Shown one piece after another: positions 1-22,600 of a stretch of 64,000 nucleotides of DNA. The translations under genes were made by a program, and so were the position numbers. Source of the DNA: Allacma fusca (taxonomy: Eukaryota; Arthropoda; Collembola; Symphypleona; Sminthuridae); assembly GCA_947179485.1 (NCBI GenBank), contig OX359250.1, forward strand, positions 34,440,783 to 34,504,782. Direction: 5' to 3'. Numbering within the stretch: the stretch's first letter is position 1; the number at the start of each line of letters is the position of its first letter. The notes beneath the pieces were generated by a model. That model searched no databases. It was not told where the DNA came from and was given only the letters and a program-made list of their open reading frames with translations.

Positions 1-206
1 ACTTGAACAATGCTGTCAAGTTGATGAGCTGTTGTTATAAATTACAATAGCGTATGTATTGATCAGCACTCCAATAATTTGTGCAGAGCTCTTTGTATAA
101 GCTTGAACAATGTAAGGTCTTGAGTGAAGAATACAAATAGCAGCATCGTTATTTATTTTATCACCACTTTTCCAACAATCAGTTCTTCGAGGAAGGAGTG
201 GATTTC
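1..206 (-). pseudogene. Family I serine-protease-homologue exon, broken, at window edge
   Basis: Read on the minus strand, an acceptor (ttttcag) opens at 206 and the frame gives DCWKSGDKINND followed by HSRPYIVQAY and IIGVLINTYAIV. This matches the family I N-terminal exon of the array (DCCNNGD, then HSRPF, then GVLINAYTIV). After the IV the frame runs into NNSSST and a stop. The SAHQVD segment of the good copies is visible as AHQLD one frame over, after a net gain of about 7 nt, so the frame is lost exactly at the histidine region. The Pro-rich linker is absent here. The rest of this copy lies beyond position 1. I call it a decayed copy. Confidence 0.6.
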
Positions 207-255
207 CTGAAAATTAAAAACATTGTAATTTAGTTGCATGCAAATACTGACATTT

Positions 256-525
256 TCAAATAATTCTAAATTTCAAAGCGTAGTAACCATTTATTTTAGC
301 TCGAGATATTACGTTAACGAAACGAGCAAAACTCAAAACTAGTTTGACCAACCTCCTAGAAAATTTAATCGCGTTCTCTAAATTCCAAAATCCAGCCAAT
401 CCAGTGGAAATATTGGCAGTGCAATTGTAACCATCTCTAAAGTCGGGGAACGTTGGAAGATAGATGCTAAAAGTCATATGTTGAGTCCCGTTGCCCTGAT
501 AAATGACAGGGGCGCCCCAATCATT
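256..525 (-). pseudogene. Orphan C-terminal exon of a serine protease homologue
   Basis: An acceptor (ttttatag) precedes NDWGAPVIYQGNGTQ, which matches the YDWGAPVTCRGNGDQ start of the family II last exon, with Trp at the catalytic-serine position. The rest (GYNCTANISTGLAGFWN) diverges strongly. The stop codon found after CRGW in the good copies is lost, so the frame runs on to 256. I could not find the matching middle or N-terminal exons in 526-1285, only a weak trace near 610-650. It is either a decayed gene or a divergent member whose other exons I cannot recognise. Confidence 0.5.
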
Positions 526-2268: not shown

Positions 2269-3747
2269 CTACAACTTTCTGTGTAAGTTTGGTGGGAACA
2301 ACGTTCCGTTATTATTGCGATAATACTTCAACGTATACTTTTCCCACACGTTGTTTCGGCCTTTCTTAATTCTGTTGCTAGCCAACTTCGAGGGAGTTCT
2401 GCAATTGAGGTTAGAATTCCATCCGTACAGTAGGCATATGCTGAAGACAATTGCATGGAAGAAAATCTTGGAATCATGCGAACAAATGACCGGTGACCCC
2501 CATTCATGCTGCAAATTCAAAATTTTGTGGAATTAGTGTAACGTACGGGCAAACCCAACGGTAAACTGCTTGAATAGAAATGACCTAAAATGGAAATACT
2601 CAAAAAATATATGATTTCCAAATTTATAGTAGTTGCATTAGGCCATGTCAAAATTTGTAGTCAATGGGGTAACATTATCAAATTAATTTTAATAGTCGGA
2701 ATTTTCGAAGGATTTAAAATTTTGAAACGGCTTTCCAGCTGATTTTTTAGTTTTTCAAACTGATTAATTTGACGCTGGCATGCATGTTTTTTTTAATTAA
2801 TCCAAAAGTTGTATGCAAGCTCCCTATATTGAAAAATGTGTGCATGACTGATAAAACTAAGGAAAGAAGGTACAGAAATTCCTCTTCAGGGAACAAAATA
2901 TAGGCAAATATATCACAATATACTCACACTACACTTTTACACATAAAACATATACTAATACTGTACCAAGAGAATCTGGTTATTTCAATATACACATATA
3001 AAAACTTGGTTTACCAGACAAGCTCCTCCTTTCACGCAAGTGATTGTTTCATGAACATTTTTGCACGTGCTGGGGTCTTTGAATGTCACTTTCTGCTCTC
3101 GTAGCTGTGTCTCCGGAGAAGTTTGTTGCCAGGCAATTATGCTGCATTCCTCTATTGGTTTATCACCTGCTGGAGCAAGGCCAATGGAATTCACGTACTC
3201 GTTGAAGGCAAAGGGATCAGCAAGGTGGATCAAACCGTAGTCAAATGCATTTTCTGGTCTACAAAATTTTAGAATTTTAAAAGAGCCTTTGTGAGTTCAA
3301 GAACTACTTTCCTCTATTTTGTGAATTTCTTCATATTATAAGTGTCTTACTTTCCGTTTTCTGGATGTTTCGAAGTTGAACATGGAGACCGGGTTTGTTG
3401 CGTACCTTCGTACTTGCCTAAGAAGTGTTTCCCTGCTGTAATTTTTCGGATATTGTCAACTTGATGGGCTGATGTTACAATAGTGTAAGCGTTGATCAAT
3501 ACTCCAATGGAAACGTCTTTAGAGTTCTCCATATGAATCATAACAATGAATGGTCTCGAGTGAGGAATAGCACTATCGCCGTTTACAGTGTCGCCGTTAT
3601 TACAACAATCCTTTGGTGTTGGAGTTGTAGGTGGCAGGGGTGGTGCTGGAGTAGTGGGAGGCGGGGGTGGTGGAGGAGGAGGCGGAGGAGGAGGTGGAGA
3701 AGGTGGAGGGGTTGGAAGAGGTGGAGGAGGTGGAGGAGGTGTTGTTG
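2269..3747 (-). pseudogene. Family I secreted serine protease homologue, copy 1 (frameshifted)
   Basis: Exons in transcript order are 3747-3351, 3258-3015 and 2508 downward. The first gives a Pro/Thr-rich linker, DCCNNGD, HSRPFIVMIHM and IVTSAHQVD. The second gives PENAFDYGLIHLADPF, and the third HEWGSPVICSHDSK. The fold is that of chymotrypsin-like S1 peptidases. His and Asp of the triad look retained (SAH, FDYGLI), but GDSGGP has become HEWGSP, so Ser is Trp. Splice phases agree. In the last exon a 2-nt deletion relative to copies 2 and 3 (near 2440) shifts the frame, so the C-terminal Cys and normal stop are lost and translation runs to 2269. The TATA-like box of the other copies is also degraded here. 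The first (signal) exon was not identified. Probably a decaying gene. Confidence 0.7.
3610..3747. repeat. GGT/GGA-rich coding microsatellite (poly-Pro linker)
   Basis: The plus strand shows runs of GGTGGA/GGAGGC. On the minus strand these encode the Pro-rich linker of family I copy 1. The equivalent tract is short in copy 2 (8519-8564) and long in copy 3 (13440-13558), so tract length varies between paralogues. Confidence 0.8.
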
Positions 3748-4033
3748 CTATAAACGTAAAATGTAAAGTCAATATATAAATACTCGTTGTTTTACATCTT
3801 ACAAATTGAATACTATGGAAAGTTTGAAAGTCGATGAAATTTTGGTTGTTACTACTTAAAGAAAGTTCTCGTTTTAACGTGCAGCTCTATGTACGCTCCC
3901 ACGTAATTCCCACAAAAATTAATCCAACCCGTAGTTTTATAGATTCAAGTAATTACATGTTTTCGGAAGCATTTTAGCTGACAGTACTACTCTCACCGGC
4001 AAACGTACAAATGCACTAAACTCAAAAAATGGT

Positions 4034-5159
4034 TTACCAACCCCTGCAAAGTTTGGTCGCAGTCTTGACTTCATCATCAAACCATGGTTGCGGCAGATGA
4101 GCTAATAAATTTATTGACGCTGGGCCACAGTGAATGAAAACTGCAATGACTTGAGCAATAACTATAACTTGGTCACCATTGCCCCGACATGTTACCGGTG
4201 CACCCCAGTCGTACTGGAAAATTAAAATATTAAAATTGAAAAGAAAACATTTTCTTTGCTTTTGGTCAAAAATTCTGACGCTTTTGAAAATTGTTAGCTT
4301 ACATGACAAGCTCCTTTACTAATACACTGAATAGTAAAATGTTGCCTTTGGCATTCCTTAGCTGGTAGAACTTCCACCCAGGTTTCCCGTAATACTTCGG
4401 AATATTCAGGTTTTTCACCTTCTGACACTCGTCCCCAGCCAGCAATCTTACAATTAGTGGTTGGATATCCTCCCCCAGACCCAAATACAGGAAATTTTGC
4501 GGGCTGGACATACTCGTTAAAAATCAAGGGTTCACGCAAATGGATAATACCATAGTTGAAAGATACTGTGTCACCACTGAGGCACAAGACACACATTGTT
4601 AGTTTATACACTGAATCCTTATTTTACACTGAATTTTTTACTGAACCTTTGTCAAGAATTGCAATATTGTCACCAAACCTTCCTAATTGTGGATGCTTCG
4701 AAATCATACAAGGTTTTCGTTCTTGTTGTGTGTCCTCGTACGTGTCATGGTCGTAGAACTTGCCAGCCAAGATTTTGGTGACTGTTTCAATTTTCCTGCC
4801 CATAGCAATTATTGTCCATTTATCGTAAACTACGGCAACAGAAACTCTCCCACCAGAGATCAGTTGAACAATGTAGGGGCGTGAGTGAGGGGGATTAACA
4901 GGCTTCCCTTTCAAGATCCTCTTGCGCTGACCATTTTCACCCTGAACCTCGATTGAGTCATCTTCTGCCCAAGTGCTGTAAAAATCTTTTCAAAAATCAA
5001 GCTAAGTTGTAGATTTTTTTAATTTGGAGAACGTTACATGGTCTCTGAAAATTGGACTTTTTCATACTCGACATGTAGTTATTATTAAATGTTAAATATT
5101 ATGTAATTACCCGTAAAAATAACTAAGAATAGGAATGCTTTCCAAGAAACACAGTACAT
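4034..5159 (-). CDS. Family II secreted serine protease homologue, copy 1
   Basis: Exons on the minus strand are 5159-5111, 4964-4679, 4576-4303 and 4213-4034. Exon 1 gives a hydrophobic signal peptide, MYCVSWKAFLFLVIFT. Exon 2 gives EDDSIEVQ, then QRKRILKGKPVNPPHSRPYI, where RILKG sits at the place of the usual R|IVGG activation site, followed by WTIIAMGRKIE where trypsins have TAAHC. Exon 3 gives FNYGIIHL, where the catalytic Asp is Asn, then AGWGRVSEGE. Exon 4 gives YDWGAPVTCRGNGD and ends CRGW-stop; GDSGGP is YDWGAP, so Ser is Trp. All three triad positions are substituted, so no proteolysis is expected. The frame is open throughout. The donor of exon 2 is GTTTGG, weak but in the same place in all three copies. 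It lies about 290 bp upstream of family I copy 1 on the same strand. Confidence 0.75.
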
Positions 5160-5661
5160 TTAGTCCGGCTAAAGGTTTCAGGATTGGGAATCTAAAATCT
5201 TCCATTCAAGAAACACATTTTACGGTAATTTTTAAACAAATGTATGCGAGACTAAAAATTCTTCTTCCATTGATATCACATTGAACGTTGCTATTTCTAT
5301 CCTCAGTGCAAAATGTTTACGATTCTTGGATATTTGGGTTCAACTTCCATAACATGAAAATAGCTTTAATTTGATTCTGTGTGATTGAAGTTTGAGCAGT
5401 ACGAATCAACAACGCGTGCATTGTTTCTGAAATTAATGGGTGAGGATGCTGCAGAGACAATTAAGCACACAGCTGTATTAAAATCGTTCTCCAACAAGTA
5501 TTTGTCAAATGAGGATATGAGGGGAAATTGTTGTTTACAGTATAATAATTTCAAGGAATTTTAAAACAAGCATGATTTTTGTTTTGAAACTATTGCATGG
5601 AAAATGTGTATGCACATCCTTGGCCGTCATTCTTTCTACTACCCTAATTCCGAGTTCACAC

Positions 5662-6477
5662 CTAGTGCCGTCCATGGAAACAGGAGACGTCCAAGTTTCT
5701 GGCTACGGGAACAGGAATGGGTGCGTATGGGAACGCAAATTTTGTTCCCAAAACATTTTGGGAACGTTTGTGAACATAGAAGTTGTTCCCAAATTATAGG
5801 AACAAAAGCGGTTTTGGGAACAGGAACAAAACGTGTACCTTCCTGGTATTTACATAAAGTTTGTAATAAAAAATACCTCATTCCTAAAATATGATTTTAA
5901 AAGTGCGTCACAACATATCAAACAAGTCACTCTTTCGCACGCCATTGTTTAAAATGCACCGAACCGCGTGGAAAAAATTAAATTGTTTGGAATTTAAACA
6001 CAAAATCGGAGCTCCGAAAACTCCAGCCTTCTGATTTCCTTATTAGTTCGGTAAAAGGATAATGCAGGTGCTACTTGTCATGGCTGGTTTCAGTTACTAC
6101 TGTACATTGTGGAATTAATTTAGTGACTGTCACTGAATAATCATTTAATTTCGAGTCCCTGAAGGCATTGGAGGTGGTGTGCTGTTATTTATTTAGAAAA
6201 AAGTCGATTTGATATTTGTTTTTTTAAAGCAATGAATAAATTGAGTTACCTTCGGCGTAAATGTTTAATTCTAAATTGCAAGTCCTTTCATTTCTCTGCT
6301 AGTCTTTAAGTACTTTTGGGATCAAGAACCTTCCTGTTCCTGCAGGAACAAGTTCAGGAACTTTGAACTTGTACCCAATTTTATGGGAACGGGATAATTG
6401 CTTTAGTTGCTGACAAAATGGGAATAGGTACAAGAACAGGTATGGGTAACAAATTGCCGTTCCCTTGGACAGCACTA
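5662..6477. mobile_element. hAT-type non-autonomous element (TAGTGCYGTCC ends), copy A
   Basis: The left end TAGTGCCGTCCATGG and right end CCTTGGACAGCACTA are inverted repeats. They are flanked by the 8-bp direct repeat GTTCACAC (5654-5661 and 6478-6485). The interior is full of GGGAAC/GGAACA words and has no long frame. The same element sits at the same place in the next unit (10587-11385), while the third unit has an unoccupied site near 17600. Confidence 0.85.
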
Positions 6478-6485
6478 GTTCACAC

Positions 6486-7273
6486 TGCACTTCTGCAGGG
6501 TCAACATTTCCTTCCGGAAGTCAATTCACTTAAAAGTATGCGAGGTTAGTTTTTAAATAATCGTCACCAAAATTTTGAAAGCAAAGCCAAAAGTTAATCG
6601 TTTTGTTTTCTGTCAATCGTTATGAAATAATTGGAATAGGTCTATAATACTAGGCTCAATTTATTTTAATCTCTTTCAAAATAAATTATTTCTTAATTTA
6701 AGTTTCGCCAAGGCTAAATCATCGGAGAACCTGCAATTTTCCCAGAGAGGACAAATTATCCACTGATCATACGTTCAAATTGATACAAATTTTCAACTCA
6801 GGTTTTGACTTAAATTTCAAAACAACTAAATTTGAAATGTAGTAAACAGTATCGGAAGGTCATCAAAAATACCCTAATTATTATACCGTCATTTTGAAAA
6901 ATCACAGCAGCTTTTTAATGGCAATTCCCGTCTCAGTCGTTTTATAAATTATTAATTTAAAAAGACAAACAATGGTCCGTGCTGTGGCCAAGAAAATCCT
7001 CTCACCAAGAACCACATGTTCCTTAATAGAAAATGTACCGATTTAATTGTTTCAAATAATTCATTTGTTTGTGAAGTTACTACAAAAAAAACCGGACGTG
7101 TCGGTATGACTTTGTCAATTTCTGTTTGTAACTTCATATTTCATTTAAAAAAACGGATTTACGAAACTTCAGGAATTAAAAAAATGATTTCTATAAGTAC
7201 TAATGACGACATCAACGAAACATTTTTATGTGTTGGGGGAAGCTTTCGTCTTACAATTAATAGTTTGAATTCT
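6486..7273. other. Unit spacer, no gene recognised
   Basis: Closely matches 11394-12180 in the next unit, so it is shared by duplication. No coding potential was recognised on either strand. Confidence 0.5.
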
Positions 7274-8564
7274 TCAACGTATACTTTTCCCACACGTCGT
7301 TTCGGCCTTTCTTAATTCTGTTGCTAGCCAACTTCGAGGGAGTTCTGCAATTGAGGATAGAATTCCATCCTTACAGTAGGCATTTGTTGAAGACACAATT
7401 GCATGGAAGAAAATCTTGGAATCATGCGAACAAATAACCGGTGACCCCAATTCATGCTGCAAATTCAAAATTTTGTGGAATTAATGTAACGTACTGGCAA
7501 AAACACCCGTAAACTGCTAAACGGAAACAATATAGAAATAACCAAAAACGGCAATACTCATAAAATACATTATTTCCAAATTTATAGTTTTTGTTAACAA
7601 TTCTTGATAAAGTTTATTTCATTAGGCCAGGTCAGAATTTGGAGTCAACGGGATGAAAATTAGATTTGAATTAGAATTGATTTTTTTCGAACTGATCATA
7701 AAGCTGTATGACAGTTCCCTATGTTGAAAACTGTGCGCATGACCGATAGAATAAAGGAAAAAAATTGAAAAAATTCCTCTTCAGGGAACAAAATATAGAC
7801 AAATATATCACAATATACTCACACTACAAATATTCTACTCCGCTGGCATACAAAACATATACTTATAATGTACAAAGAGAGTCTGGTTATTTCAATATAC
7901 ACATATAAAAACTTGGTTTACCAGACAAGCTCCTCCTTTCACACATGTGATTGTTTCATGCACATTTTTGCACGCGCTTGGGTCTTTGAATGTCACTTTC
8001 TGTTCTCGTAGCTGTGTCTCCGGAGAAGTTTGTTGCCAGGCAATTATGCTGCATTCCTCTATTGGTTTATCACCTGCTGGAGCAAGGCCAATGGAATTCA
8101 CGTACTCGTTGAAGACAAAGGGATCAGCAAGGTGGATCAAACCGTAATCAAATGCATTTTCAGGCCTACAAAATTTTAGAATTATAAAAGAGCCTTTGTG
8201 AGTTCAAGAACTACTTTCCTCTATTTTGTGAATTTCTTTATATTATAAGTGTCTTACTTTCCGTTTTCTGGATGTTTCGAAGTTGAACATGGAGACCGGG
8301 TTTGTTGCGTACCTTCGTACTTGCCAAAAAAATGTTTCCCTGCTGAAATTTTTCGGACATTGTCAACTTGGTGGGCTGATGTTACAATAGTGTAAGCGTT
8401 GATCAATACTCCAATGGAAACGTCTTTAGAGTTCTCCATATGAATCTGAACAACGAATGGTCTTGAGTGGGGAATAGCAAGATCGCCGTTTACTTTGCCG
8501 TCGTTATTGCAACAATCGTTTGGTGCTGGAGTTGTAGGTGGCGGGGGTGGAGGTGTTGTTGGTG
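7274..8564 (-). CDS. Family I secreted serine protease homologue, copy 2
   Basis: Exons found on the minus strand are 8564-8258, 8165-7922 and 7456-7274, with matching phases. The product has a short linker (APTTPPPPPPTTPAP), DCCNNDG, IPHSRPFVVQIHM, VLINAYTIVTSAHQVD, PENAFDYGLIHLADPF, SIIAWQQTSPET, then HELGSPVICSHDSK, and ends TTCGKSIR-stop. The triad His and Asp look retained; the Ser region GDSGGP is HELGSP, so Ser is Leu in this copy, unlike the Trp of copies 1 and 3. No R|IVGG activation site is seen: the sequence runs from a Cys-Cys motif straight into HSRPF. The first exon (signal peptide) is not resolved; it should lie between 8564 and the TATA-like site at 8846-8854. A secreted binding or decoy role is only an inference. 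Confidence 0.7.
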
Positions 8565-8845
8565 CTATCTCGATAAACGTAAAATGTAAAGTCAATATAT
8601 AAATACTAGTTGCTTTAGATCTTACAAATGGACGACTACGGAAAGCCTAACGAGGTAAGATTTCGGGATCGTACTTGCGGATTCAAACAAAGCATAACAC
8701 ATATTTTAGTAATTATTACTCCTCGAGTATGTTTCAGAAGAATACATCGCATTTTGCCCCGTCTCGTAGGGTAAGTCACCAGAGTTTCAGAATTTAAAGC
8801 GATACCTGCCTTTTTCAAAATTTTCAGGTCACGTTTTAACGTGCA

Positions 8846-8854
8846 GTTATATAC
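8846..8854 (-). promoter_or_regulatory. TATA-like box of family I copy 2
   Basis: The minus strand reads GTATATAAC within a block (CACGTGG..GTATATAACTGCACGTT) that is nearly identical upstream of copy 3 (13822-13830). In copy 1 the same block reads GTACATAGAG near 3885, so the box is lost. It lies about 280 nt upstream of the first recognised exon. Assigned by position and conservation only. Confidence 0.4.
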
Positions 8855-8977
8855 ACTTCCACGTGATTCCCAAAAGATAATCCCTCCATCATGGCGCACC
8901 CGTAATTTTATGGATTCAAATACATATTTTCAGCTGACAGTACTACTCTCACCGGCAGACGTAAAAAGGCGCTAAAC

Positions 8978-10090
8978 TCAAAAAATGTTTAACCAACCCC
9001 TGCAAAGTTTGGTCGCTTTCTTGACTTCGTCATCAAACCATGGTTGTGGTAGTTGAGCTAATACATTTATTTCTCCCGGGGGGCCACAGTGCTTGCGGGC
9101 TGATATGACTTGAGCAATAACTATATCTTGGTTCCCATTGCCCCGACATGTTACCGGTCCGCCGTCGTCGTACTGGAAAATTAAAAAATTTGAAATTGAA
9201 AGTATAAAAATTCCATTTGTCGATGGTCGCAAAATTGTGACGCTTTTGAATATTTTTAGCTTACATAACAAGCTCCTTTACTAATACATTCAATTGTAAA
9301 ATGATGCTTATTGCATTCCTTATTTGGTAGAACTGTCACCGAGGTTTCCCGTAATACTTCGGAATATTCTGGTTTTTCACCTGCTGACACTCGTCCCCAG
9401 CCAGCTATTTTACAATTAGTCGCTGGATATCCTCCCCCAGACCCAAATACAAAGAATTTTGCGGGCTGGACATACTCGTTGAAAATCAAGGGTTCACGCA
9501 AATGGATAATACCATAGTTGTAAGTTAAGTCACTATTGAGACACAAGACATACATTGTTAGTTTATACACTCAATCCTTTCTTACACTGAATTTTGGTCA
9601 AGAATTGCAATATTGCAACCCAACTTTCCAAATTTTGGATGCTTCGAAATCATACAAGGTTTTCGTTCTTGTTGTGACTCCTCTCACTTGTTATGATTGT
9701 AGAACTTGCCAGCCAAGATTTTGGTGACTGTTTCAATTCTATAGCCCACAGCAACTATTGTCCATTTATCGTAAACTACGGCACCAGCAACATGCGCTGT
9801 ATACATCAGTTGAACAATGTAGGGGCGTGAGTGTGGGGGATTAACAGGCTTCCCTTCGAAGATCTTCTCGCCCTGACCATCTTCACCCTGACTCTCGATT
9901 GGGTCATCTTTTGCCCAAGTGTTGTAAAAATCTTTTCAAAAATCAAGAAGTTAATCGAAGAAAGTTACATGGTCTCTGAAACTTAAACTTTTTCATACTC
10001 GACATGTAGTTATTATTAAATGTTAAATATTATGTAATTACCCGTAAAAATAACTAAGAATAGTAATGCTTTCCAGGCAACACAGTACAT
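8978..10090 (-). pseudogene. Family II serine protease homologue, copy 2 (premature stop)
   Basis: Exons on the minus strand are 10090-10042 (signal MYCVAWKALLFLVIFT), 9907-9625, 9532-9265 and 9172-8978. The second exon contains an in-frame TGA: copy 1 reads KFYDHDTYEDTQQ, while here it is KFYNHNK-stop-EESQQ, near 9690. The activation-like site has become GEKIFEG. The third exon keeps YNYGIIHLREPL, and the fourth begins YDDGGPVTCRGNG, so the Ser position is Asp rather than the Trp seen in the other family II copies, and the exon ends CRGWLNIF-stop. The reading frame is otherwise well preserved, so the stop looks recent, or it may be an assembly error. Confidence 0.7.
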
Positions 10091-10586
10091 TTAGTCCGGC
10101 TAAAGTTTTCGGGATTGAGGGTTTAAAATTTTCCAATCAAGGAACACAATTTAATGTATTTTTAGACAATTGTATGCGAAACTAAAAATTCTTCTTTCCA
10201 TTGGTATCACATTGAACTATGGCTATTTCCTTCCTCAATGCAAAATGTTTATGACTCTTGGATATTTGGGTTCAACTTCCATAACAATGAAAATAGCTTT
10301 AGTTTGATTCTGTGTGATTGAACAATGAGCAGTGCGAATCAACAACGTATGCATTGTTTCTGAAATTAATGGGTGAGGATGCTGAAGAGACATTTAGCTC
10401 ACAGCTGTATTAAAATTGTGTCCCCAAATAGTATTTGTCAAATGAGGATATAAGGGGAATTGTTGTTTATAAAATGTCCAAATCATTTTAAAACAAGCAT
10501 GATTTTTGTTTTGAAACTAGTGAATGAAAGATATGTATGTACAGCCTTGGTCGCCATTCTTTCTAGTAATCTAATTCCTGGTTCAC

Positions 10587-11385
10587 CTAGTTCTGTCCAT
10601 GGGAACAGGAGACGCCCATGTTTGTGGGTACGGGAACAGAAATGGGTGCCTTTGGGAACACAAATTTTGTTCCCAAAACACTTCGGGAAACATAGAAGTT
10701 TTCCCCAAAATATAGGAACAAAAGCGGGTTTGGGAACAGGAACAAAACGTGTACCTTCATGGTATTCACATGAAGTTTGTAAAATAAAAATACCTCAATC
10801 AGAAAATATAATTTCAAAAGTGGGTCACAACATATCAAGTAAGTCACTATTTGGCATGCCATTATTTAAAATGCACCGAACCACGTGGAAAAAATTAAAT
10901 TGTTTGGAATTTAAACACAAAATCGGAGCTCAGAAAACTCCAGCCTTCTGATTTCCTTATTAGTTCGGAAAAAGGATAATGAAGATGCCACTTGTCATGG
11001 ATAGTTTCAGTTACTACTGTTCTTTGTGCTATTAATTTAGTGACTGTCACTGAATAATCATTAAATTTTGAGTCGCTAAAGGTATGGGAGGTGGTGTGCT
11101 GTTATTTATTTTAAAAAAGGTCGATTTTATATTTGTTTTTTAAAGCGATGAATAAATTGAGTTAATTACTTTCAGCATGAATGCGTAAGTTGAAATTGTA
11201 AGTACTTTCATTTTTCTGCTAGTCTTTAAGTACTTCTGGGAATAGGAACATTCCTGTTCCTGCAGGAACATGTTCAGGAACTTTGAACTTGTACCTAATT
11301 TTATGGGAACGGGATAATTTGCTTTAGTTCCTGACAAAAAGGAACAGATATGGGTACAAAATTTCCGTTCCCTTGGACAGCACTA
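10587..11385. mobile_element. hAT-type non-autonomous element, copy B (duplicated with unit)
   Basis: The ends TAGTTCTGTCC and GGACAGCACTA correspond to copy A at 5662-6477, and the flanks (GTTCAC on the left, GATCACAC on the right) are decayed versions of its GTTCACAC duplication. Flanks and interior align along their whole length with the previous unit, so this copy arose by segmental duplication and not by a second insertion. Confidence 0.8.
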
Positions 11386-12180
11386 GATCACACTACACTT
11401 CTGCAGGTTCAACATTTCCTTCCGGAAGTTAATTCACTTACACGTATGCATGGTTAGTTTAAAAATAATCTTCACCAAAATTTTGAAAGCAAAGCCAAAA
11501 GTTAATCGTTTTGGTTTCTGTCAATCGTTATGAAACAATTGGAATATGTGTGCAATACTAGGCTCAATTTATTTTAATCTCTTTAAAAATAAATTATTTC
11601 TTAATTTAAGTTTCGCCAAGACTAAATCATCGGAGAACCTACAATTTTCCCAGAGAGGACAAATTATCCACTAATCATGCGTTCAAAATGATACAAATTT
11701 TAAACTCAGGTTTTGACTTAAATTTCAAAACAACTAAATTTGAAATGTAGTAAACAGTATCGGAAGGTTATCAAAAATACCCTAATTATTAAACCGTCAT
11801 TTTGAAAAATCACAGCAGCTTTTTACCGGCAATTCCCGTCTCAGTCGTTTTATAAATTTTTAATTTAAAAAGACAAACAATGGTCCGTGCTGTGGCCAAG
11901 AAAATCCTCTCACCAAGAACCAAATGTTCCTTAATGGAAAATATACCGATTTAATTGTTTCAAATAATTCATTTGTTTGTGAAGTTACTACAAAAAAACC
12001 GGACATGTCGGTATGACTTTTTCAATTTTTGTTTGACTTCATATTTCATTTAAAAAAACGCATTTACGAAACTTCAGGAATTAAAAAAAAGATTACTATA
12101 AGTACTAATTACGGCATCAACGAAACATTTGCATGGGTTGAGGGAAACTTTCGTCTTACAATTAATACAGTTTGAATTCT
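11386..12180. other. Unit spacer, no gene recognised
   Basis: Near-identical to 6478-7273. No gene seen. Confidence 0.5.
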
Positions 12181-13558
12181 TCAGCGTATACTTTTCCCAC
12201 ACGTTGTTTCGGCCTTTCTTAATTCTGTTGCTAGCCAACTACGAGGGAGTTCTGCAATTGAGGATAGAATTCCATCCTTACAGTAGGCATTTGTTGAAGA
12301 CACAATTGCATGGAAGAAAATCTTGGAATCGTGCGAACAAATAACCGCTGACCCCCATTCATGCTGCAAATTCAAAATTTTGTGGAATTAGTGTAACGTA
12401 CTGGAAAAAACACCCGTAAACTGCTTGACACGGAAACAATATAGAAATAACCGAAAATGGCAATACTCATAGAATACATGATTTCCAAATTTATAGAGTT
12501 TTTGTTAACAATTCTTGATAAAGTTTATTTCATTAAGCCAGGTCAAAATTTGGAGTCAACGGGATGAAAATTAGATTTGAATTAGAATTGATTTTTTTCG
12601 CACTGATCATAAAGCTGTGTGACAATTCCCTATGTTGAAAACTGTGCGCATGACCGATAGAATAAAGGGAAAAAATTGAAGAAATGTCTCTTCAGGGAAC
12701 AAAATATAGGCAAATATATCACAATAAACTCACACTACATTTATTCTACTCGGCATACAAAACATGTACTAATAATGTACAAAGAGAGTCTGGTTATTTC
12801 AATATACACATATAAAAACTTGGTTTACCAGACAAGCTCCTCCTTTCACGCAAGTAATTGTTTCATGAACATTTTTGCACGTGCTGGGGTCTTTGAATGT
12901 CACTTTCTGCTCTCGTAGCTGTGTCTCCGGATAAGTTTGTTGCCAGGCAATTATGCTGCATTCCTCTTTTGGGTTATCACCTGCTGGAGCAAGGCCAATG
13001 GAATTCACGTACTCGTTGAAGACAAAGGGATCAGCAAGGTGGATCAAACCGTAATCAAATGCATTTTCAGGCCTACACAATTTTAGAATTTTAAAAAGGC
13101 CTTTGTGAGTTCAAGATCTACTTTCCTCTATTTTGTGAATTTCTTCATATTATAAGTGTCTTACTTTCCGTTTTCTGCATGTTTCGAAGTTGAACATGGA
13201 GACCGGGTTTGTTGCGTACCTTCGTACTTGCCAAATAAATGTTTCCCTGCTGTAATTTTTCGGACATTGTCAACTTGATGGGCTGATGTTACAATAGTGT
13301 AAGCGTTGATCAGTACTCCAATGGAAACATCTTTAGAGTTCTCCATATGAATCATAACAATGAATGGTCTTGAGTGAGGAATAGCACTATCGCCGTTTAC
13401 AGTGTCGCCGTTATTACAACAATCCTTTGTTTCGGGAATTGTAGGTGGCGGGGGTGGTGCTGGAGTAGTGGGAGGCGGGGGAGGTGTAGGGGTTTGTGGG
13501 GGTGGTGGAGGTGGAGGAGGAGGTGGTAGACGCGGTGGAGGCGTTGTTGTCGTTGTTG
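12181..13558 (-). CDS. Family I secreted serine protease homologue, copy 3
   Basis: Exons found on the minus strand are 13558-13165, 13072-12829 and 12363-12181, with consistent phases. It has the most varied linker of the family (TTTTTPPPRLPPPP, then QTPTPPPPPTTPAP, then PETKDCCNNGD), followed by IPHSRPFIVMIHM, IVTSAHQVD, PENAFDYGLIHLADPF and HEWGSAVICSHDSK, ending TTCGKSIR-stop. The triad His and Asp look retained. GDSGGP is HEWGSA, so Ser is Trp and the conserved Pro is Ala. The signal exon is unresolved; a TATA-like box lies at 13822-13830. The frame is open in all recognised exons. Proteolytic activity is not expected; the real function is unknown. Confidence 0.7.
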
Positions 13559-13821
13559 CTATAAACGTAAAATGTAAATTCAGTATATAAATACTAGTAG
13601 TTTAGATCTTACAAAAGGACGACTAAGGAAAGCCTTACGAGGTAAGATTTCGGGATCGTACTTGTGGATTCAAACAAAGCATAGCACACATTTTAGTACT
13701 CCTCGAGCATGTTTCAAAACAAAAAATCGCATTTCGTATCTTAGTGTAAGTCACCAGAGTTTCAAAATTTAAAATGATACCCTGCCTTTTTCAAAATTTT
13801 CAGCTCGCGTTTTAACGTGCA

Positions 13822-13830
13822 GTTATATAC
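13822..13830 (-). promoter_or_regulatory. TATA-like box of family I copy 3
   Basis: The minus strand reads GTATATAAC in the same conserved block as at 8846-8854, about 265 nt upstream of the first recognised exon and just inside the insertion site of the 13878 hAT element, which separates it from sequence further upstream. Confidence 0.4.
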
Positions 13831-14871
13831 GCTCCCACGTGATTCCCAAAAAAATAATCCCTTCGTCATGGCGCACCTAGTGCTGTAATTTGTTCGTTTT
13901 GTTTGGTTTTGTTCTCTTCGGAAATGAACAAAAGTGGAACAATTTGAGTTTTGTTTTGTTCACCGAGTTTTGTTTTGTTTTGTTTTTTGAACAATCCGAA
14001 TTGTTCAAAAAACAATCCATATTGTTTTGTTCTACCGATGTAGAAGATGTTAGAAATTTGTGAAATTGATTGTTGTATATTAGTAATAGAGCATATTGAA
14101 GTTGATTGGTGTAAATTTGGTCCGCGCACAAAGGACGTTAAAACCAAAAAAACGGGCTTTAACTAATTTTAGGTGGATATGCTTTACAACTCTTATTTAA
14201 TACACTCATTAAACTTTTTGTTGATAGTTTCTAGGAGTGCAAGGCGTAATGTAATTCCATGCATCCACAAGACCTGAAATGACCGCATATATAGACATAA
14301 TATATTGTGGTGGGGTTTACCTAAAGCTACCGATACGCATCGTTTTCGGTTCGTCCGATGCCTTGATTGAATTAATAACCTGTATTGTTTTTTTGGACTG
14401 CTTAGACCTCTTTTATTTCTGTGTCTTCCTGTCAACTCACAGGCAGACTAGTTTCAACATTTTTGGATCAAATCAAGTTTATCATTATCAATTTAGCATC
14501 CAAGTCATCCTTCTGCATTTTATTAAAAACAACAAAACAAAATCAAATTTCAGCAGTGGAGGTGACATTTGTTCAACTAAGGACTGGTGTCCAACAGAAA
14601 TTTCTCTCGTTTACAATATCCGATGTAACCAAACATTTAATATCAGTACAGGTTATGGTCATAGAAGGTAACAATTAATTACTCCATTGACCTCAAGTAG
14701 GCATTCTAAGTTACACGTTGTTCAATAACTTTAGATTGGCCTTCAACATCTGTAAATATAGTGCAAAGATTTTGTTGACCTTACTTAAGCCCAACGGTTC
14801 ACACTATCACTTCAAAAGCTTCTAATGGTCATTATGATGTTATTTGAGATTCATTTCAATGTGTATGTAAG

Positions 14872-15233
14872 GTCATGGGTCTACTAATAACCCACAAAGG
14901 TCAAATTGAGGTCATGGGTCTACTAATAACCCAAAAAGATCAAATTGAGGTCATGGGTCTACTAATAACCCACAAAGGTCAAATTGAGGTCATGGGTCTA
15001 CTAATAACCCACAAAGATCAAATTGAGGTCATGGGTCTACTAATAACCCACAAAGGTCAAATTGAGGTCATGGGTCTACTAATAACCCACAAAGATCAAA
15101 TTGAGGTCATGGGTCTACTAATAACCCACAAAGGTCAAATTGAGGTCATGGGTCTACTAATAACCCACAAAGGCCAAATTAAGGTCATGGGTCTACTAAT
15201 AACCCACAAAGGTCAAATTAAGGTCATGGGAAT
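14872..15233. repeat. 39-bp tandem repeat, about nine copies
   Basis: The unit begins GGTCATGGGTCTACTAATAA and continues CCCACAAAGGTCAAATTGA. Because 39 is divisible by 3, the plus strand has an open frame of 13-residue repeats (MGLLITHKGQIEV). It has no start context or neighbouring exon and lies inside a hAT element, so I do not call a protein. Confidence 0.9.
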
Positions 15234-15650
15234 TCTTGTGACCCATCGAAAAATGAGATAATGAAACTCCTTGTGACCCATCGAAAAATGAGATAATGAA
15301 ACTCCTTGTAGCCCACTGAGGTCAAATTGAGGTCATTAAAATTTCTTGCAGCCCACTGAGGTCAAATTAAGGCCATGGAATTTCTTGTGACCCACTGAGG
15401 TCAATTGGAGGTCATGGAACTTGTAACTCATTGAGGTGAATTTGAGGCCATTAAACTTTTTATGACTCACTCAGGTCAATTTGAGGTCATGTTGCTATTT
15501 GTGACTTATTCAGGTCAATTTGAGGTCATGTTGCTATTTGTGACTTACTCAGGTCAATTTGAGGTCATGTTGCTATTTGTGACTTACTCAGGTCAATTTG
15601 AGGTCATGTTGCTATTTGTGACTCACTCAGGTCAATTTGAGGTCATATTA
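15234..15650. repeat. Second 39-bp repeat family, degenerate then regular
   Basis: The regular part (15460-15650) has about five units containing TCAGGTCAATTTGAGGTCAT and TTGCTATTTGTGACT; 15234-15460 is a degenerate mixture of the two families. GGTCA recurs in every unit. It has the same period as the preceding array, so both probably derive from one ancestral unit. Confidence 0.8.
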
Positions 15651-15954
15651 CTTTTGGGCACTTTTTCAAACTCAAGTTTGAAAAGGTTATTGCTTGCTGT
15701 CGTGGTGGTTTGTTTGTTATAGTTTTGTTTTATCTTATCGCGGTTTTGTTTTGTTCTAGTTTTGTTTTTTCGAAAACGGATTTTGTTTGTTTTGTTTTGT
15801 TCAAAAAACAAGAACTGAACAAAAGAACAAACAAAACGCGAACAATATTACAGCACTAGGCGCACCCGTAATTTTATATATTCAAATACATGTTTTCAGA
15901 AGCATTTTAGCTGACAGTACTACTCTCACCGGCAAACGTAAAAACGCGCTAAAC

Positions 15955-17103
15955 TCAAAAAATGTTTAACCAACCCCTGCAACGTTTGGTCGCAGTCTCG
16001 ACTTCGTCATCAAACCATGGTTGTGATAGTTGAGCTAATAAATTTATTGACGCCGGGCCACAGTTCTTCAAAACTGCAATGACTTGACCAATAACTATAT
16101 CTTGGTCACCATTGCCCCGACATGTTATCGGTGCACCCCAGTCGTACTGGAAAATTAAAATATTAAAATTGAAAAGAAAACATTTTATTTGCTTATGGTC
16201 AAGAATGTTGACGCTTTTGAATATTGTTAGCTTACATAGCAAGCTCCTTTACTAATACACTGAACAGTCAAATGTTTGTATTTGCATTCCCCAGATGGTA
16301 GAACTTGCACCGAGGTTTCGCGTAATACTTCGGAATATTCTGGTTTTTCACCTGCTGACACTCGTCCCCAGGCAGCAACCTTACAATTAGTGGTTGGATA
16401 TCCTCCCCCAGACCCAAATACAGGAAATTTTGCGGGCTGGACATACTCGTTGAAAATCAAGGGTTCACGCAAATGGATAATACCATAGTTGTAATTATTG
16501 TCATCACTGAGACACAAGACACACATTGTTAGTTTATATACATACTTAATCCTTTTTTACACTGAATTTTTTACTCAACCTTTGTCAAGAATTGCAATTT
16601 TGTAACCCAACCTTCTTAATTTTGGATGCTTTGAAACCATACAAGGTATTCGTTCTTGTTGTGAGCTCTCGTACGTGTTAGGGTTGTAGAATTTGCCAGC
16701 CAAGATTTTGGTGACTGTTTCAATTCTCCAGCCCAAAGCAACTATTGTCCATTTATCGTAAACTAGGGCAACAGAAACTCTCCCATCAGACCTTATCAGT
16801 TGAACAATGTAGGGGCGTGAGTGTGGCGGATTAACAGGAATGCCCTTCAAAATCCTCTCGCGATGAGGACCTTTATTATCCTTACTCTTGATTAAGTCAT
16901 CTTCTGCCCAAGTGTTATAAAAATCTTTCCAAAAATCAAGCTAAGTTGTAATTTTTTAAATAATTTGAAGAACGTTACATGGTCTTTGAAACTTGGACTT
17001 TTTCATATTCGACATGTAGTTATTATTAAATGTTAAATATTATGTAATTATTACCCGTTAAAATTATTAAGAATAGGACTGCTTTCCAGGCAACACAGCA
17101 CAT
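15955..17103 (-). CDS. Family II secreted serine protease homologue, copy 3
   Basis: Exons on the minus strand are 17103-17055, 16903-16612, 16506-16236 and 16146-15955. Exon 1 is a signal peptide (MCCVAWKAVLFLIILT). Exon 2 has EDDLIKSKDNKGPHRERILK followed by G, where RILKG replaces R|IVGG, then HSRPYIVQLI and WTIVALGWRIE with no catalytic His. Exon 3 has YNYGIIHLREPL (Asp replaced by Asn) and AAWGRVSAGE. Exon 4 has YDWGAPITCRGNGD (Ser replaced by Trp) and ends CRGWLNIF-stop. All frames are open and phases match (signal exon phase 1; exon 2 to 3 phase 2 through a GTTGGG donor; exon 3 to 4 phase 0). It is the most intact family II copy with copy 1. The pair is now split from family I copy 3 by the 13878 hAT element. 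Confidence 0.75.
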
Positions 17104-18194
17104 TTAGTCCGGCTAATGGCTTCGGGATTGAGAATCTAAACTCTTCCATTCAAGGAACACATTTTACGGTATTTTTTAGACAATTGTATGCGAAACTAAA
17201 AATTTTTCCTCTTTTCATTGTTAACACACTGAACTATGGCTATTTCCATCCTCAGGGCAAAATGTTTATGATTCTTGGATATTTGGGTTCAACTTCCATA
17301 ACAATGAAAATAGGTTTAATTTGATTCTGTGTGATTGAACTTTGAGCAGTACAAAATCAACAACGTGTGCATTGTTTCTGAAATTAATGGGTGAGGATTC
17401 TGTAGGGACATTTAGCACACAGCCTAATTAAAATCGTACCCCAAAAATTAATTTGTCAAATGAGGATATGAGGGGAAATTGTTGTTTATAATAATTTCAA
17501 GTAATTTTAAAACAAGTACGATTTTTGTTTTGAAACTACAGACACATATTGCATACAAAATTTGTATGCACATCCTTGGCCGTCATTCTTTCTATTACTC
17601 CAGTAGCTAAATCTCACTGCACTTATGCAGGATAAGCATTTCCTCCCGGAAGTTAATTTACTTACACATGTTGATCAAAATTTTGAAATCGTAGAAGACA
17701 ATTTTGACAGAGTAATCAAAAATATCTTTTTTTTCAATCCAAACGTAACCATTGCGTTTTCGTCCAGAATGAGTCACCCGATAATAAACCACCAAATTAA
17801 TTGTTTGGAATATATCAACATGTTGGTAACGACAATAAAAACATCTGGTTCTAAATCTTCGAAAGGATTTGATCGATTAAGTTTGTCTACGCAATCTTCC
17901 AAGATTTTTGCCGTAAAAATTAAATTAAATTTGTGCTGAGTAATCGTGTCTACAGACAGACGCACACCGAGGACAAACCCATAAGGGGCGCTAGCTCTGC
18001 CCCTAAAATCGTCAAAAAAATTCACAAGTCACGAATCACCACTCCATGAAACAAAAACTCTAAATTTCCAAGTTATCAAAAAACATATAATTACATTATT
18101 TGCTAAAATAATCCCCGCAGATGCTGAACTTGACCAACGAAAATTTACAAAACTGGAACAAACCATGCAAAACAATGGGGATTAAAAATGGGGT
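17104..18194. other. Upstream flank of the array, no intact gene
   Basis: Up to about 17700 it matches the spacer upstream of family II in the other units, including the unoccupied hAT site near 17600. After that the sequence is unique. A plus-strand frame at 17625-17939 has no recognisable domain and I do not call it. Confidence 0.5.
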
Positions 18195-18340
18195 TACTTC
18201 ATCACACATGTAACTGTTTCATGGACATTTTTACATATGCTAGGGTCCTTGAATTTTACCCTTTGTTTTCATAGCTCTGTGTCCAACAAATTTCGTTGTG
18301 AGGCAATTATGCCACATTCATCCTTTGATTTTCAATATTT
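18195..18340 (-). pseudogene. Relic of a family I middle exon
   Basis: The minus strand reads KDECGIIASQR, then an in-frame stop, then VKFKDPSICKNVHETVTCV. This is the middle exon of family I (EECSIIAWQQ and FKDPSTCKNVHETITCV in the good copies), with a stop and frame damage between. No other exons are recognisable around it. It marks the old upstream limit of the array. Confidence 0.75.
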
Positions 18341-18344
18341 TGAC

Positions 18345-19697
18345 CGCGTCTTGTAATGGAGCTTTTAAATTGTCAAAGAAAACTTGAATTCATAGCGATT
18401 GTGATGCAAAATTTCTACAGTCCGGTTGTGCAGCTTCAAAGTCAAAGTAAAGTTTCGAAAAACTGGAATAACTTTGATCTCGGATGTGACATCTGGGTCG
18501 TTATTAGCTCGTTGAAAAACAGGTGTTTAATATTGCTCTTCAAGTTAAAACCATATCAATCGAAATATTGAAAAGGCGTGGTATTCAAATTCACCGATTC
18601 TTTGACCAAAATGTCTACCTTTTCAAGAAGGAATCTACATACTTGTCTCGCACCCTTGGCTGGACAAATAATTTTAAATTCATGTCGGCTAGTAGACGAC
18701 CTCTAGGCTACAGAGTTGGTCCAAAACATTTGTCGTGCTAACACCAAAGTTGAGATGCAATTTTTGTAGCAAAAATTATGCAGATTTCTCTAGCATACCT
18801 GTCATCATGAGCTTTTCCTTATAAAATTGACCTCAAAGATATTTGATCCGTTTTCAAATTTTCAATGGGGTCTCCCCCCTGTCGAGATTTAAAATATTAC
18901 ATGTTAAATTCCATAAGAAAATGTTATTTTCGAAAGTTGGCGAAAATGTTCAAGTAACATTCTAACATGCTAAATGTCAATAAATACACTATGGGGGATT
19001 CACGGGTGTAGACTCCACTGTAGACAGATCAATGCAAATCAAGGAGAATTTTAATAACTATATGGTCATGCTTTCACACTTCTAATTCAGAATTGCAATT
19101 CGGGTTTAATTAGCAATTTGTAATTGAGATTGCAACTAATTACAAATTATTTATTAATTAGAGAAAATAACCAGTGTAATGTGAAAATATTGGTTTAATT
19201 ACCAAGCAAGAATTTTTAAGAATGAAAGATCATCCAAGCACTGCAATACAGTTTATTTCTATAACTCCAGTGCGTCCTGGTAGGACCCGGAGAGATTTTC
19301 AAAAGCTGATTTCAACTAAAATTAACCAATCAAACAAGTCATATGACACTCCGGTAATGATAATGAACGGAAGGTAGTTTTGCAAATTTTTTCCAAATTT
19401 TTTCTTTGTACCAGCAAAATCAAAAATAATTTCATTATTTAAATTAACACCAAGATATTCTATGTTAATTTAATTTTTTCCAGAGCAGGAAAATCATTTA
19501 GTCACATTCCCTTTTACCACAAGGGTAAATCCACCCCACATAAAAAATCGTCAGGCATACCAAATATGCATGAACATATCCCTTGAAAGCGCCCTTATGA
19601 CGATGCAATCCTCAAATGAATCTATTCGCCTCCTCTTGTCCCCTCCCAAAATTCCATCGGAGAAAATATTTTGACAGTGTATCCTTTTGTTTGGCAG
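18345..19697. other. No gene recognised
   Basis: AT-rich, with short frames and no family match. It ends at the acceptor of the first neuroligin exon and is presumably intron sequence. Confidence 0.4.
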
Positions 19698-22600
19698 GAC
19701 TGTTCCAACGAGCGATCCTGATAAGTGGATCAGTGCTGAGTCCGTGGGCACTTCAACGGAAGCCGGAGGATATAGCAACACAAGTTTCCATCCAGATGGG
19801 GTGTGTGGGGAGACTCCCTCTGTCACACCCCGAAAGTGACCTGGCCCCTTGCCTCCGTCGAAAGCATCTGTCAGACCTGATGAACTTTGTGCCTCAAACG
19901 CCCCGCTTCCTCTCACCCTTCGCCCCCTACGTGGACAACATCCTCATCAAGAACCCCAAGACCATCATGGAGAAGGATCCCTTGGAGCAGTTCAAGCGCT
20001 CCGAACTCATCGTGGTCTTCACGACGAGTGAGAGTGCTCACGAGCTTAATAAACATGAGCTAATTCATGGGTTTGAAGCCGACCATAAGGATCGGATCTT
20101 GCGAACGCTCGTGAGGAATGTGTTCAATTTCCATCAGCAAGAAATCTTCTCGATCGTGAAAAATGAGTACACGGACTGGGATAGGCCCATTCCCCACCCC
20201 ATTCCCCTGAGGGATGCCACCGTTGAGGCACTCAGTGATTGTCTTGTCATTGCTCCTGCTCTCCAAGTGGCTCTTATTCATGGCCGTCGGGGTGCAAAAA
20301 CTCATCTCCTTCATTTTTCACATGTGTCCAGGGAGCACGATTTTTCATCTTATGAGGTAACTTTTTTTTCTCACTTTCTCTCTCTCTCTCTCTCTCTCTC
20401 TTCAACTATCCATGTAATAACCTCCAATCACATTTTTATTCCCCTTTTTCTCATCACCCCTCTCTCCTCTCTCCCTCTCTCACTCATTTTACTTACTTGT
20501 ATCTCTCTTGCTCTTTTTCTCTCACTATTTCTCAATTTCTTCAGCTTTCTCTCCCTTGTCAATCCTCTTTCCTTCTATTTTTGTCTCTCTTAATTTCTCT
20601 ATATTTTGCCTCCCTTAATTTCTCTATATTTTGCCTCCCTTAATTTCTATATTTTTCCTCCTTTAATTTCTCTATTTTTCCTCCCTTAATTTCTGTATTT
20701 TCTCTCATTTAATTTCTGTATTTTCCCTCATTTAATTTCTGTATTTTCCCTCATTTAATTTCTGTATTTTCCCTCATTTAATTTCTGTATTTTCCATCAT
20801 TTAATTTCTGTATTTTCCCTCCTTTAATTTCTCTATGATTTGCCCCTCTATTTTTGGCCCTCTTTCGCTTGTCTTCTACATCCTGTCTTGCACTCTAGCT
20901 GTTTCTCTCACTGCCTCTCTAAATTTGGCACTCTTTCCCTCCCCTTTTCTATTTTTGATCCCCTCCTTGCCTTTCCTCTCTTTTTCTTCCGATTTCTCTC
21001 TCTTTCTCTTCCTCCATTTCTATTTTTGCCTCTCTCTCTCTCTCTCTCCCCTAATTTTGTCTCGCTATATACATCTAACTGTCTGTTTGTCTCTCTCTCT
21101 CTCTCTCTCTCTCTCTAGTTTTGTCTATTTCTTCTCCCTCTTCCTCTGTCGCTCCTGAGCTATTGGAATTTCACAGGTGGATAGTTGCTTAAGAGTAGGA
21201 CTGGATATTTTGTTGTGTGGGAGCGGGGAAGCAGAAAAAAGGGAGAAGCTATTACTGGAAAAATGTGGTGTTTTGAAAAATAATAGATATCCTTTGTCAG
21301 CAATTGTATGGGGTCTAGTTCCACATTAATTCTGTATACATGGTCATTTATAACCAGAAAACACTTGCTCCTATCGCACTCCCATGTAGCAGCATTAAGG
21401 GTATCCTCAGGATCAGAAAAACAAGGAGGAGCATCCTCCTCATTTTTTACCCCCAGACACACACATATGGAGTGAGCACGAGTCTATACAACAATTATTA
21501 TAAGTATAAAAGAAATAAATCAGGGCCAGACGGGGCTTAGAGCAGATCCATTCAAAGACACTCATTCAAAATCCTATAGTCAAATTATATCTCGTATACT
21601 GATTTCCATGTACATTCCAAGCTCCCACTTCTACAGATATTTAAGACTTTACTTCTATAATCTAATGCATACAGACAAATATAAATTCTCAACCGTGGAC
21701 ACATAATCACAATTTATTCCTTCCGCTATAGAGAAGCAGTCTACTATATAGAGGGAAACAACATTGAGGTCTTATGTATCTATACTTATTCTACTTTTAT
21801 TCTATAGCCCAAGTATGCACATACACTGATGTATAGATACATACAAGAAGTGATAAATTTTTCGAGGGAAAAAAAATCCCTTGTTATTTACTTGCGAAAA
21901 TAATTCCTAGGGTTCGACATTCTCAAGAATTATTGTTGATTTTTGAATTTATTGGATGCACTTGAAGCCCTTTTCCTCCAGAGAGCACTTTTCTTACTAA
22001 AGATAGGCTTCAAGTAATTTGTAAACGAGGATTTTTCTCACGATCCCTTTTCTTCCAGTAACCCTTGAAATAAGATTTTAAAGAGGGTGAATTTTCTAAA
22101 TTTTGTCTCACGATTAAAAAAAAAATTCAAAGCAAAACGTAATAGTAATGTTTAAGTGGGAACGGTGGATAAAATTCTATTCATAAGCACTTGAGTATTA
22201 TCTCGTCCTGGGACTCAACATGACTTTTCTTTAAATATTGACTGAGAATCTTCCTATTTTCTCCCCTGCAGTCTAAAGTGCACTTTAGCTTTTACAGTGC
22301 AGTCTTGCTATATAGGAGGTACCTAAATTCTAAAAGAAAAAAATTTGAATATACATACAATGAGTTGTATATAATTACATATGCACTGTATACATTTTTT
22401 CTTACAAATTATTTTCCTTTCTTCAGGGTTTCATCCTTAGTCCTTTACTCTTGCTATAGCTTCAATATTCAAAAAAAAAATAATATTCGAAAAAACTCAA
22501 TACTAAATTATTTTTTGAAGTCGCTCATTCATGCAAACAGAAAAAAATAGCTCTTGAGAGGAACTGGATTGGAATCATTAGTAGCGTAAGTTTTGTACGG

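Follow-up and report, generated by a model that had tools for sequence, protein, structure and literature searches.

The globular springtail Allacma fusca carries, on chromosome X2 (C9), a tandem array of genes resembling secreted proteases. The array raises the question of whether its two kinds of protease-like sequence, families II and I, are neighboring genes that were copied together or two parts of a single gene, and of what their products might do. We analyzed the 64,000 nucleotides that contain it (G000:C9:34440783-34504782, hereafter the window), in which the array occupies the minus strand from 17103, where the signal-peptide exon of copy C begins with its ATG, to 2269, where the open last exon of copy A ends. 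A first-pass annotation of the same DNA had described three units, each with a II gene directly before a I gene on the same strand, and all three show this arrangement. In the window self-comparison the three minus-strand units measure ~4.9 kb each, with the II exons preceding the I exons in every unit; positions 3971-8550 and 8926-13457 share 90% identity across 4.6 kb, and 3927-5642 and 15864-17598 share 89%. The reading that we favor, with a probability of roughly 0.6, is that every unit forms a single gene whose secreted product (~540 residues) has two dead S1A heads, of which domain II would be a variable ligand-binding head and domain I a constant partner or anchor.

The predicted gene has seven exons that encode, in order, a signal peptide, domain II, a Pro-rich linker and domain I. 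Exon 1 holds a signal peptide of the MYCVAWKAFLFLVIFT type and a phase-1 donor, exons 2-4 make up domain II (phases 1-2-0-1), exon 5 combines the linker with the start of domain I, and exons 6-7 follow with phases 2-0-stop. Copy C (17103-12181) reads without interruption from exon 1 through the stop codon, with a predicted product of 541 amino acids. Its exon 1 (17055..17103) encodes the signal peptide MCCVAWKAVLFLIILT and ends in phase 1 at the donor CGG|GTAATA. The first third of domain II, with the RILKG-type start, lies in exon 2 (16612..16924; phase 1 in, 2 out), the middle in exon 3 (16236..16506; Asn at position 102; phase 2 to 0) and the end in exon 4 (15975..16146; phase 0 in, 1 out), which contains YDWGAP with Trp at position 195 and stops at TGCAGGG|GTTGGT. 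Exon 5 (13165..13558; phase 1 in, 2 out) encodes the Pro/Thr-rich linker and the start of domain I with its DCCNN motif, exon 6 (12829..13072; phase 2 to 0) the middle of domain I, and exon 7 (12181..12363) its end, with HEWGSA, Trp at 195 and the stop codon. Copy B lies at 7274..10090 (exons 10090-10042, 9931-9625, 9532-9265, 9172-8998, 8564-8258, 8165-7922 and 7456-7274) and copy A at 2269..5159 (exons 5159-5111, 4985-4679, 4576-4303, 4213-4042, 3747-3351, 3258-3015 and 2508-2269), both on the same strand as copy C.

A version of exon 2 that ends after AILDKG would place a stop in copy C and was rejected. We treat this stretch as intron because a homologous donor is found there (AG|GTTTG or AG|GTTGG, and GTAAGT on chromosome 1); the family II queries used for the genome search still included it. 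The II-to-I gap measures 2,416 nt in unit C, compared with 294 nt in A and 433 nt in B. Within its predicted intron 4, copy C has a 39-bp tandem repeat array (14870-15668), which is partly open in one opposite-strand frame, where it repeats MGLLITHKGQIEV.

To our reading, the evidence for a single gene comes from the junction between the halves and from the position of the signal peptide. Fourteen copies with both domains were modelled, 13 of them with all of exons 2-7 and one (X2, 47.42 Mb) without a readable exon 7. In all 14 models exon 4 of II is joinable in frame to exon 5 of I at phase 1: the exon 5 acceptor falls mid-codon, one base short, and exon 4 gives that one base. As the model script required phase-fitting sites, this count shows that a fitting donor and acceptor exist in each copy and is not an independent draw. 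The exon-4 donor has the consensus form AGGA|GTAAGT in two chromosome 1 copies and reads GGGG|GTTGGT at the same place in the window and X2 copies. According to the exon-5 lengths in the models, the linker spans 9 to 49 residues. Three modelling details apply here. In two chromosome 1 copies the start of exon 2 is an upstream acceptor chosen by the script, with the homologous acceptor 36 bases further in, and exon 3 of the X1 copy (4.78 Mb) was modelled from the closest acceptor, which lies 9 bases further in than the homologous acceptor; the frame is kept in these cases. In the X2 copy at 33.56 Mb, exon 3 is broken at its start.

A II-type exon 1 (M..WK..., CGG|GTAA) was located upstream of exon 2 in half of the copies (7/14). 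It lies within 0.6 kb in six of them (A, B, C, the X1 copy at 4.78 Mb and the chromosome 1 copies at 28.346 and 28.353 Mb) and 5.4 kb upstream in the X2 copy at 34.01 Mb, with the same WK motif and the donor CGG|GTAATT. For the remaining seven copies, exon 1 was sought across 1.0-3.0 kb of upstream DNA. The same search of the 14 II-I gaps returned no II-type signal-peptide exon (0/14).

If II and I were instead two neighboring genes, II would be a secreted single-domain protein ending in WL[N/Y]xF and I would have its own first exon in the gap, the two being merely co-duplicated. Several observations point this way and weigh against a single gene. The exon-4 donor GTTGGT is weak in the window and X2 copies, and reading on past exon 4 gives a short tail and a stop (WL[N/Y]xF in most copies) that is alike between the two clades, which leaves room for a product with II alone. 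Open reading frames that resemble signal peptides and carry a phase-1 GT[AG] occur in 9 of the 14 gaps. One type (MRCILLKH or MRFFVLKH) is common to B, C and the X1 copy, contains charged residues and is shortened by a stop in C; another (MNA[RQ]NCPILLRF) is common to the X2 copies at 33.88 and 47.42 Mb and to the copy on the unplaced contig C54. Counting against the favored reading as a whole, two of the three window copies are disabled, B by an in-frame stop in exon 2 and A by a frameshift in its last exon (exon 7), and the splice between II and I is a prediction from the DNA. Set against the two-gene alternative are the in-frame junction and the absence of the II-type exon from every gap, as well as the consensus exon-4 donor in the two chromosome 1 copies. 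Moreover, five gaps, including the 294 nt of copy A, contain no signal-peptide-like start. In the 14 gaps no signal-peptide-like type recurs across the three clades (window, X2 and chromosome 1) and none has the II-type motif; the separate-gene model was set aside as the main model because these frames are clade-limited and never II-type. We therefore regard two paired genes as improbable. One two-domain gene is most likely, because the junction is in frame in all models and the gaps lack a II-type signal-peptide exon.

Under the single-gene model, the unspliced end of exon 4 (WL[N/Y]xF-stop) could mark a II-only isoform or a form of splice control. By eye, the window and X2 clades are more alike in the ~24 bases after exon 4 (GTTGGTTAxACxATTTTTGAGTTT) than beyond them. 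Splicing could also yield products with only II or only I, since the introns on either side of domain II are both phase 1. Both domains share the internal phases 1-2-0, and this equality suggests that one domain was duplicated inside the gene long ago.

We searched the genome (392.74 Mb in 91 contigs, with match counts that are lower bounds) for further copies of both parts. Both are found at 16 better-preserved loci, namely the 14 modelled copies and two places on chromosome 1 (28.362 and 77.78 Mb), and at all 16 II lies upstream of I on the same strand. Ten of these loci are on X2, one on X1, one on C54 and four on chromosome 1. At 28.362 Mb, II is frameshifted and exon 5 was not found. The locus at 77.78 Mb is the most diverged copy (~55% identity in exon 6); it has exons resembling 2 to 7 in order, and its exon-3-like piece is similarly close to exon 6 of I and exon 3 of II. 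Two more degenerate places hold both parts in the same order: one at X2 33.96-33.98 Mb, with the parts 13 kb apart, and a relic at the left end of the window (43..522, minus strand), where an exon-4-like piece (~522-448) is followed by an exon-5-like piece (180-43) in the order and strand of the array. A relic of exon 6 with two stop codons (18203..18325, minus strand) lies on the other side.

The places at which the searches found a single part (X2 33.9975, 34.0007, 36.42, 38.42 and 47.44 Mb; C54 63 kb; and chromosome 2 1.07 Mb, II only) hold fragments or sequences with stops or frameshifts. Two of them, lone exon-7 relics of domain I (C9:33997556-33997717 and 34000703-34000864), lie 3.1 kb from each other and do not differ in the protein stretch matched, and we take them to be a recent duplication of a dead fragment.

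The recurrence of the II-I pairing at 16 loci is far beyond chance. The first-pass annotation had proposed that the unit rather than the single gene was amplified and had noted relics on both sides of the array, and both points agree with what we found. It had also named scattered, unpaired relatives as a finding that would speak against it; all 16 loci are paired, and the single-part places are broken. Its signal peptide before II holds as well, to which we add that this peptide sits on a separate exon and that none of that type was found for I. Its two paired genes need revision: their products are indeed tied together, as two domains of what is better read as one gene.

Both domains have the trypsin fold. 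In copy C, domain II matches Pfam PF00089 Trypsin with E=1e-13 and domain I with E=7e-24, above the curated cut-off, and Trypsin was the only family found in the Pfam scan of the 541-residue product, with no Sushi, LDL or clip domain. The PDB matches are granzyme A for domain I and plasma kallikrein for domain II, and the GDSGGP of kallikrein aligns with the YDWGAP of domain II. For the His57 column we replaced a frame-shifted MAFFT reading with an ungapped reading that is backed by the PDB alignment of domain I. Domain II has lost His57 in all 14 copies (R, Y, W, N, T, S, F or V instead) and the serine at 195 in all 14 (W, D, A, T, Q or I); the 13 copies read at position 102 have N, S, D, Y or F there. 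Domain I keeps His57 in 11 of 14 copies and Asp102 in 10 of 14; its position 195 is W (12) or L (1), thus non-Ser in all 13 copies with exon 7. Judged from these residues, both domains are catalytically dead S1A domains.

The two dead domains evolve differently. We compared them in the X2 clade, using six copies (five on X2 and the one on C54); the broken copy at 33.56 Mb, the copy at 47.42 Mb, which has lost the start of exon 7, and two chromosome 1 copies were left out of the selection counts. For the same gene pairs (the 33.56 Mb copy excluded), pairwise ratios of nonsynonymous to synonymous divergence (dN/dS, or omega) are ~0.9-2.1 for II and 0.1-0.7, mostly 0.2-0.3, for I. The codon likelihood was coded in Python, and 20 of 252 alignment columns were dropped as gapped. 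In domain II the site model M2a fits better than M1a (p=6e-21; twice the log-likelihood difference 93, approximate because the site models fix relative branch lengths from M0), with 26% of sites at omega ~6. Each of its exons gives the same result on its own tree (p=7e-7, 3e-8 and 5e-7). The linked domain I has omega 0.31 and no positively selected class.

The selected sites of domain II (posterior >0.9) concentrate on the rim of the former substrate cleft, which holds 30 among 57 sites against 8 of 156 elsewhere (Fisher p=6e-14; 213 of 232 columns used, without the 19 before the mature start). Positions 57, 102 and 195 are among them, while none of 53 sites in the chosen distal loops is selected. 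Omega for the rim alone is 3.0 (different from 1, p=9e-5), and it is 3.25 (p=0.002) when multi-base changes are allowed. The cysteines at 168, 182, 191 and 201 are invariant across the six copies. In domain I, the rim (four copies) also evolves faster than the rest (0.81 vs 0.27), yet below 1.

Other results count against this interpretation or narrow it. The rim was defined from S1A loop positions of the literature and was fixed after the site list had been seen. Over the whole of domain II, M0 gives omega 1.22, which does not differ from 1 (p=0.20). Synonymous divergence (dS) is raised at the rim (0.33 vs 0.16), omega outside the rim is 0.74 and not significantly below 1, and exon 1 was located for only one (34.01 Mb) of the six copies. 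In the window clade (A, B, C and the X1 copy, with A and B disabled), M2a is significant for domain II (p=3e-6) with four sites above 0.9, which by the numbering alignment are position 57, two in the 172 loop and one in the 217-225 loop. For the rim alone, omega in this clade is 1.15, which does not exceed 1, and it falls to 0.82 when multi-base changes are allowed. Domain I of this clade has omega 0.37, with M2a not significant (p=0.17). The chromosome 1 pair, for which the comparison is pairwise only, has no rim excess. Because of the window-clade, chromosome 1, rim dS, non-rim and exon-1 results, we limit the statement that domain II is under strong selection to the X2 clade.

One may ask whether domain II is simply under relaxed constraint, drifting or decaying, with the appearance of selection produced by multi-base mutations, gene conversion or misalignment. 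The raised rim dS, the omega near 1 outside the rim, the window-clade rim omega and the discordant histories of II and I between clades (described below) fit this explanation. It fares poorly with a rim omega that stays at 3.25 when multi-base changes are allowed, with significance in each II exon on its own tree, with the unselected distal loops and with the four invariant cysteines; furthermore, omega above 1 is not attainable by relaxation alone. We give relaxed constraint a small chance and continue with selection on the domain II cleft.

The halves of the gene differ in their history as well. Compared between the window and X2 clades, exons 2-4 are identical at 62, 70 and 53% of their bases, and either clade shares 60-65, 61-62 and 53-54% with chromosome 1 in these exons, so the window and X2 clades are little or no closer to each other. 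Exons 5-7 share 86, 91 and 90% between the window and X2 clades vs 71-79% with chromosome 1. Correspondingly, dS between the two clades is ~0.9 for II and ~0.2 for I (frameshifted copy A excluded), a difference that also speaks for the two-gene alternative. Within clades, the II and I halves diverge similarly. Trees of either half, from which the copy at 33.56 Mb was excluded, separate the window, X2 and chromosome 1 copies, with support for the X2 group of 100 (II) and 76 (I). On the simplest reading, exchange or conversion between the window and X2 lineages affected the I half and not the II half, which would make I the constant half once again.

The single-gene reading suggests how such a protein could work. 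Exons 1-7 would be spliced into one mRNA, and domain II would bind a fast-changing partner through its old substrate cleft, for instance a protein or peptide of a microbe, a parasite, a food organism or a mate. Domain I, as the constant end, would anchor the protein or recruit a partner that stays the same, and the linker would let the two heads move separately. New specificities could arise by duplication of the whole unit followed by diversification of the II exons, with the I exons kept constant by purifying selection and probably also by exchange between copies. More tentatively, and at slightly under even odds, the family may be a constant-variable recognition protein that uses a defunct active site as a germline-diversified pocket, in which exon skipping could give the constant head alone. 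The recognition idea of the first-pass annotation is strengthened by the positive selection that the X2 clade shows at the dead active site of domain II.

A specific form of the favored reading makes domain II an inhibitor decoy, which would imitate a digestive protease and capture protease inhibitors that come from food plants, fungi or parasites. Canonical inhibitors bind the active-site rim of proteases, the same rim as the one selected here. Springtails, moreover, are described as detritivores in a microbe-rich environment (PMC10051947). Canonical binding should however be spoiled by the bulky Trp at 195 (three of four window-clade copies and both chromosome 1 copies) and by the loss of Asp189, which is Ala or Gly by the numbering alignment. 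This form seems unlikely to us.

The partner might also be found in reproduction. With 11 of the 16 two-domain loci on X1 or X2 (chromosomes as in Table 2 of PMC10427803), diversification on the X chromosomes could reflect mate or sperm recognition, or sexual conflict, under paternal genome elimination, and the X chromosomes are described as being under haploid selection in males (PMC9630974). The X2 copies, however, arose partly by local duplication, so that the loci are not independent, and we think a reproductive role quite improbable.

What sets this family apart can be seen from its known relatives. Among the insect polypeptidases (polyserases), Tenebrio molitor pSerPH608 is described as having two inactive S1A domains (PMC11172050), so the architecture as such is already known. 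Like the insect polypeptidases, Nudel and the human polyserases, which have at least two S1A domains per secreted chain, some or all of them dead (PMC11172050, PMC1435904), the springtail gene places two S1A domains in series behind one predicted signal peptide (exon located in 7 of 14 copies). It differs from the Tenebrio polypeptidases in its Pro-rich linker, the lack of Sushi or LDL domains in copy C, its many copies, and one domain that diversifies at the dead site.

The SMIPP-S proteins of the scabies mite resemble the springtail family in being multicopy, catalytically dead arthropod S1A proteins. They reportedly have a single domain, unlike the two-domain springtail family. In these mite proteins the conserved parts of the surface are not on the side that holds the defunct active site, and the published conclusion is that classical substrate binding is lost and that the proteins work through other surfaces (PMC4031079). 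In contrast, domain II of the X2 clade changes at the defunct site itself, and the organism is Allacma fusca rather than a member of the Sarcoptes lineage. Clip-domain serine protease homologues (SPHs), such as prophenoloxidase cofactors, are likewise secreted inactive arthropod S1A domains (PMC11172050). Copy C differs from them in having no clip domain. We also know of no activation role for the springtail family, unlike for clip-domain SPHs.

In this family the dead site itself is apparently selected, and the conserved sister domain in the same predicted chain serves as a built-in control. The copies form a natural series in which the pocket varies, and with it one could test how binding sites arise from protease clefts. 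They also make up a candidate recognition or decoy system in springtails. In the open-access literature searched, with most subscription papers outside its scope, we came across no description of this springtail family, nor of positive selection centered on a dead S1A active site.

The genome also contains a separate tandem array with the S1A fold, which is apparently active. At chromosome 1 17.92-17.99 Mb (C1:17920050-17986929), 22 stop-free trypsin-like matches follow each other on one strand with ~3.16-kb spacing, and the one member read has intact AAHC, NDIA and GDSGGP motifs. It shares the fold and the tandem arrangement with the springtail family and differs in having one domain in the piece read, with ~26% identity to domain I. 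COX1 is present not only on the mitochondrial contig C91 but also in four nearly complete copies elsewhere (two on C12 and one each on C5 and C8), with several partial ones on C8, which we interpret as many large mitochondrial insertions in nuclear chromosomes. Within the window, an open frame on the plus strand (19601-20593) contains a carboxylesterase segment (Pfam PF00135, E=1e-24 for the 223-residue piece scanned) and runs into a TC-rich tract, and positions 56397-58442 hold a 155-bp satellite with ~13 copies at 82%.

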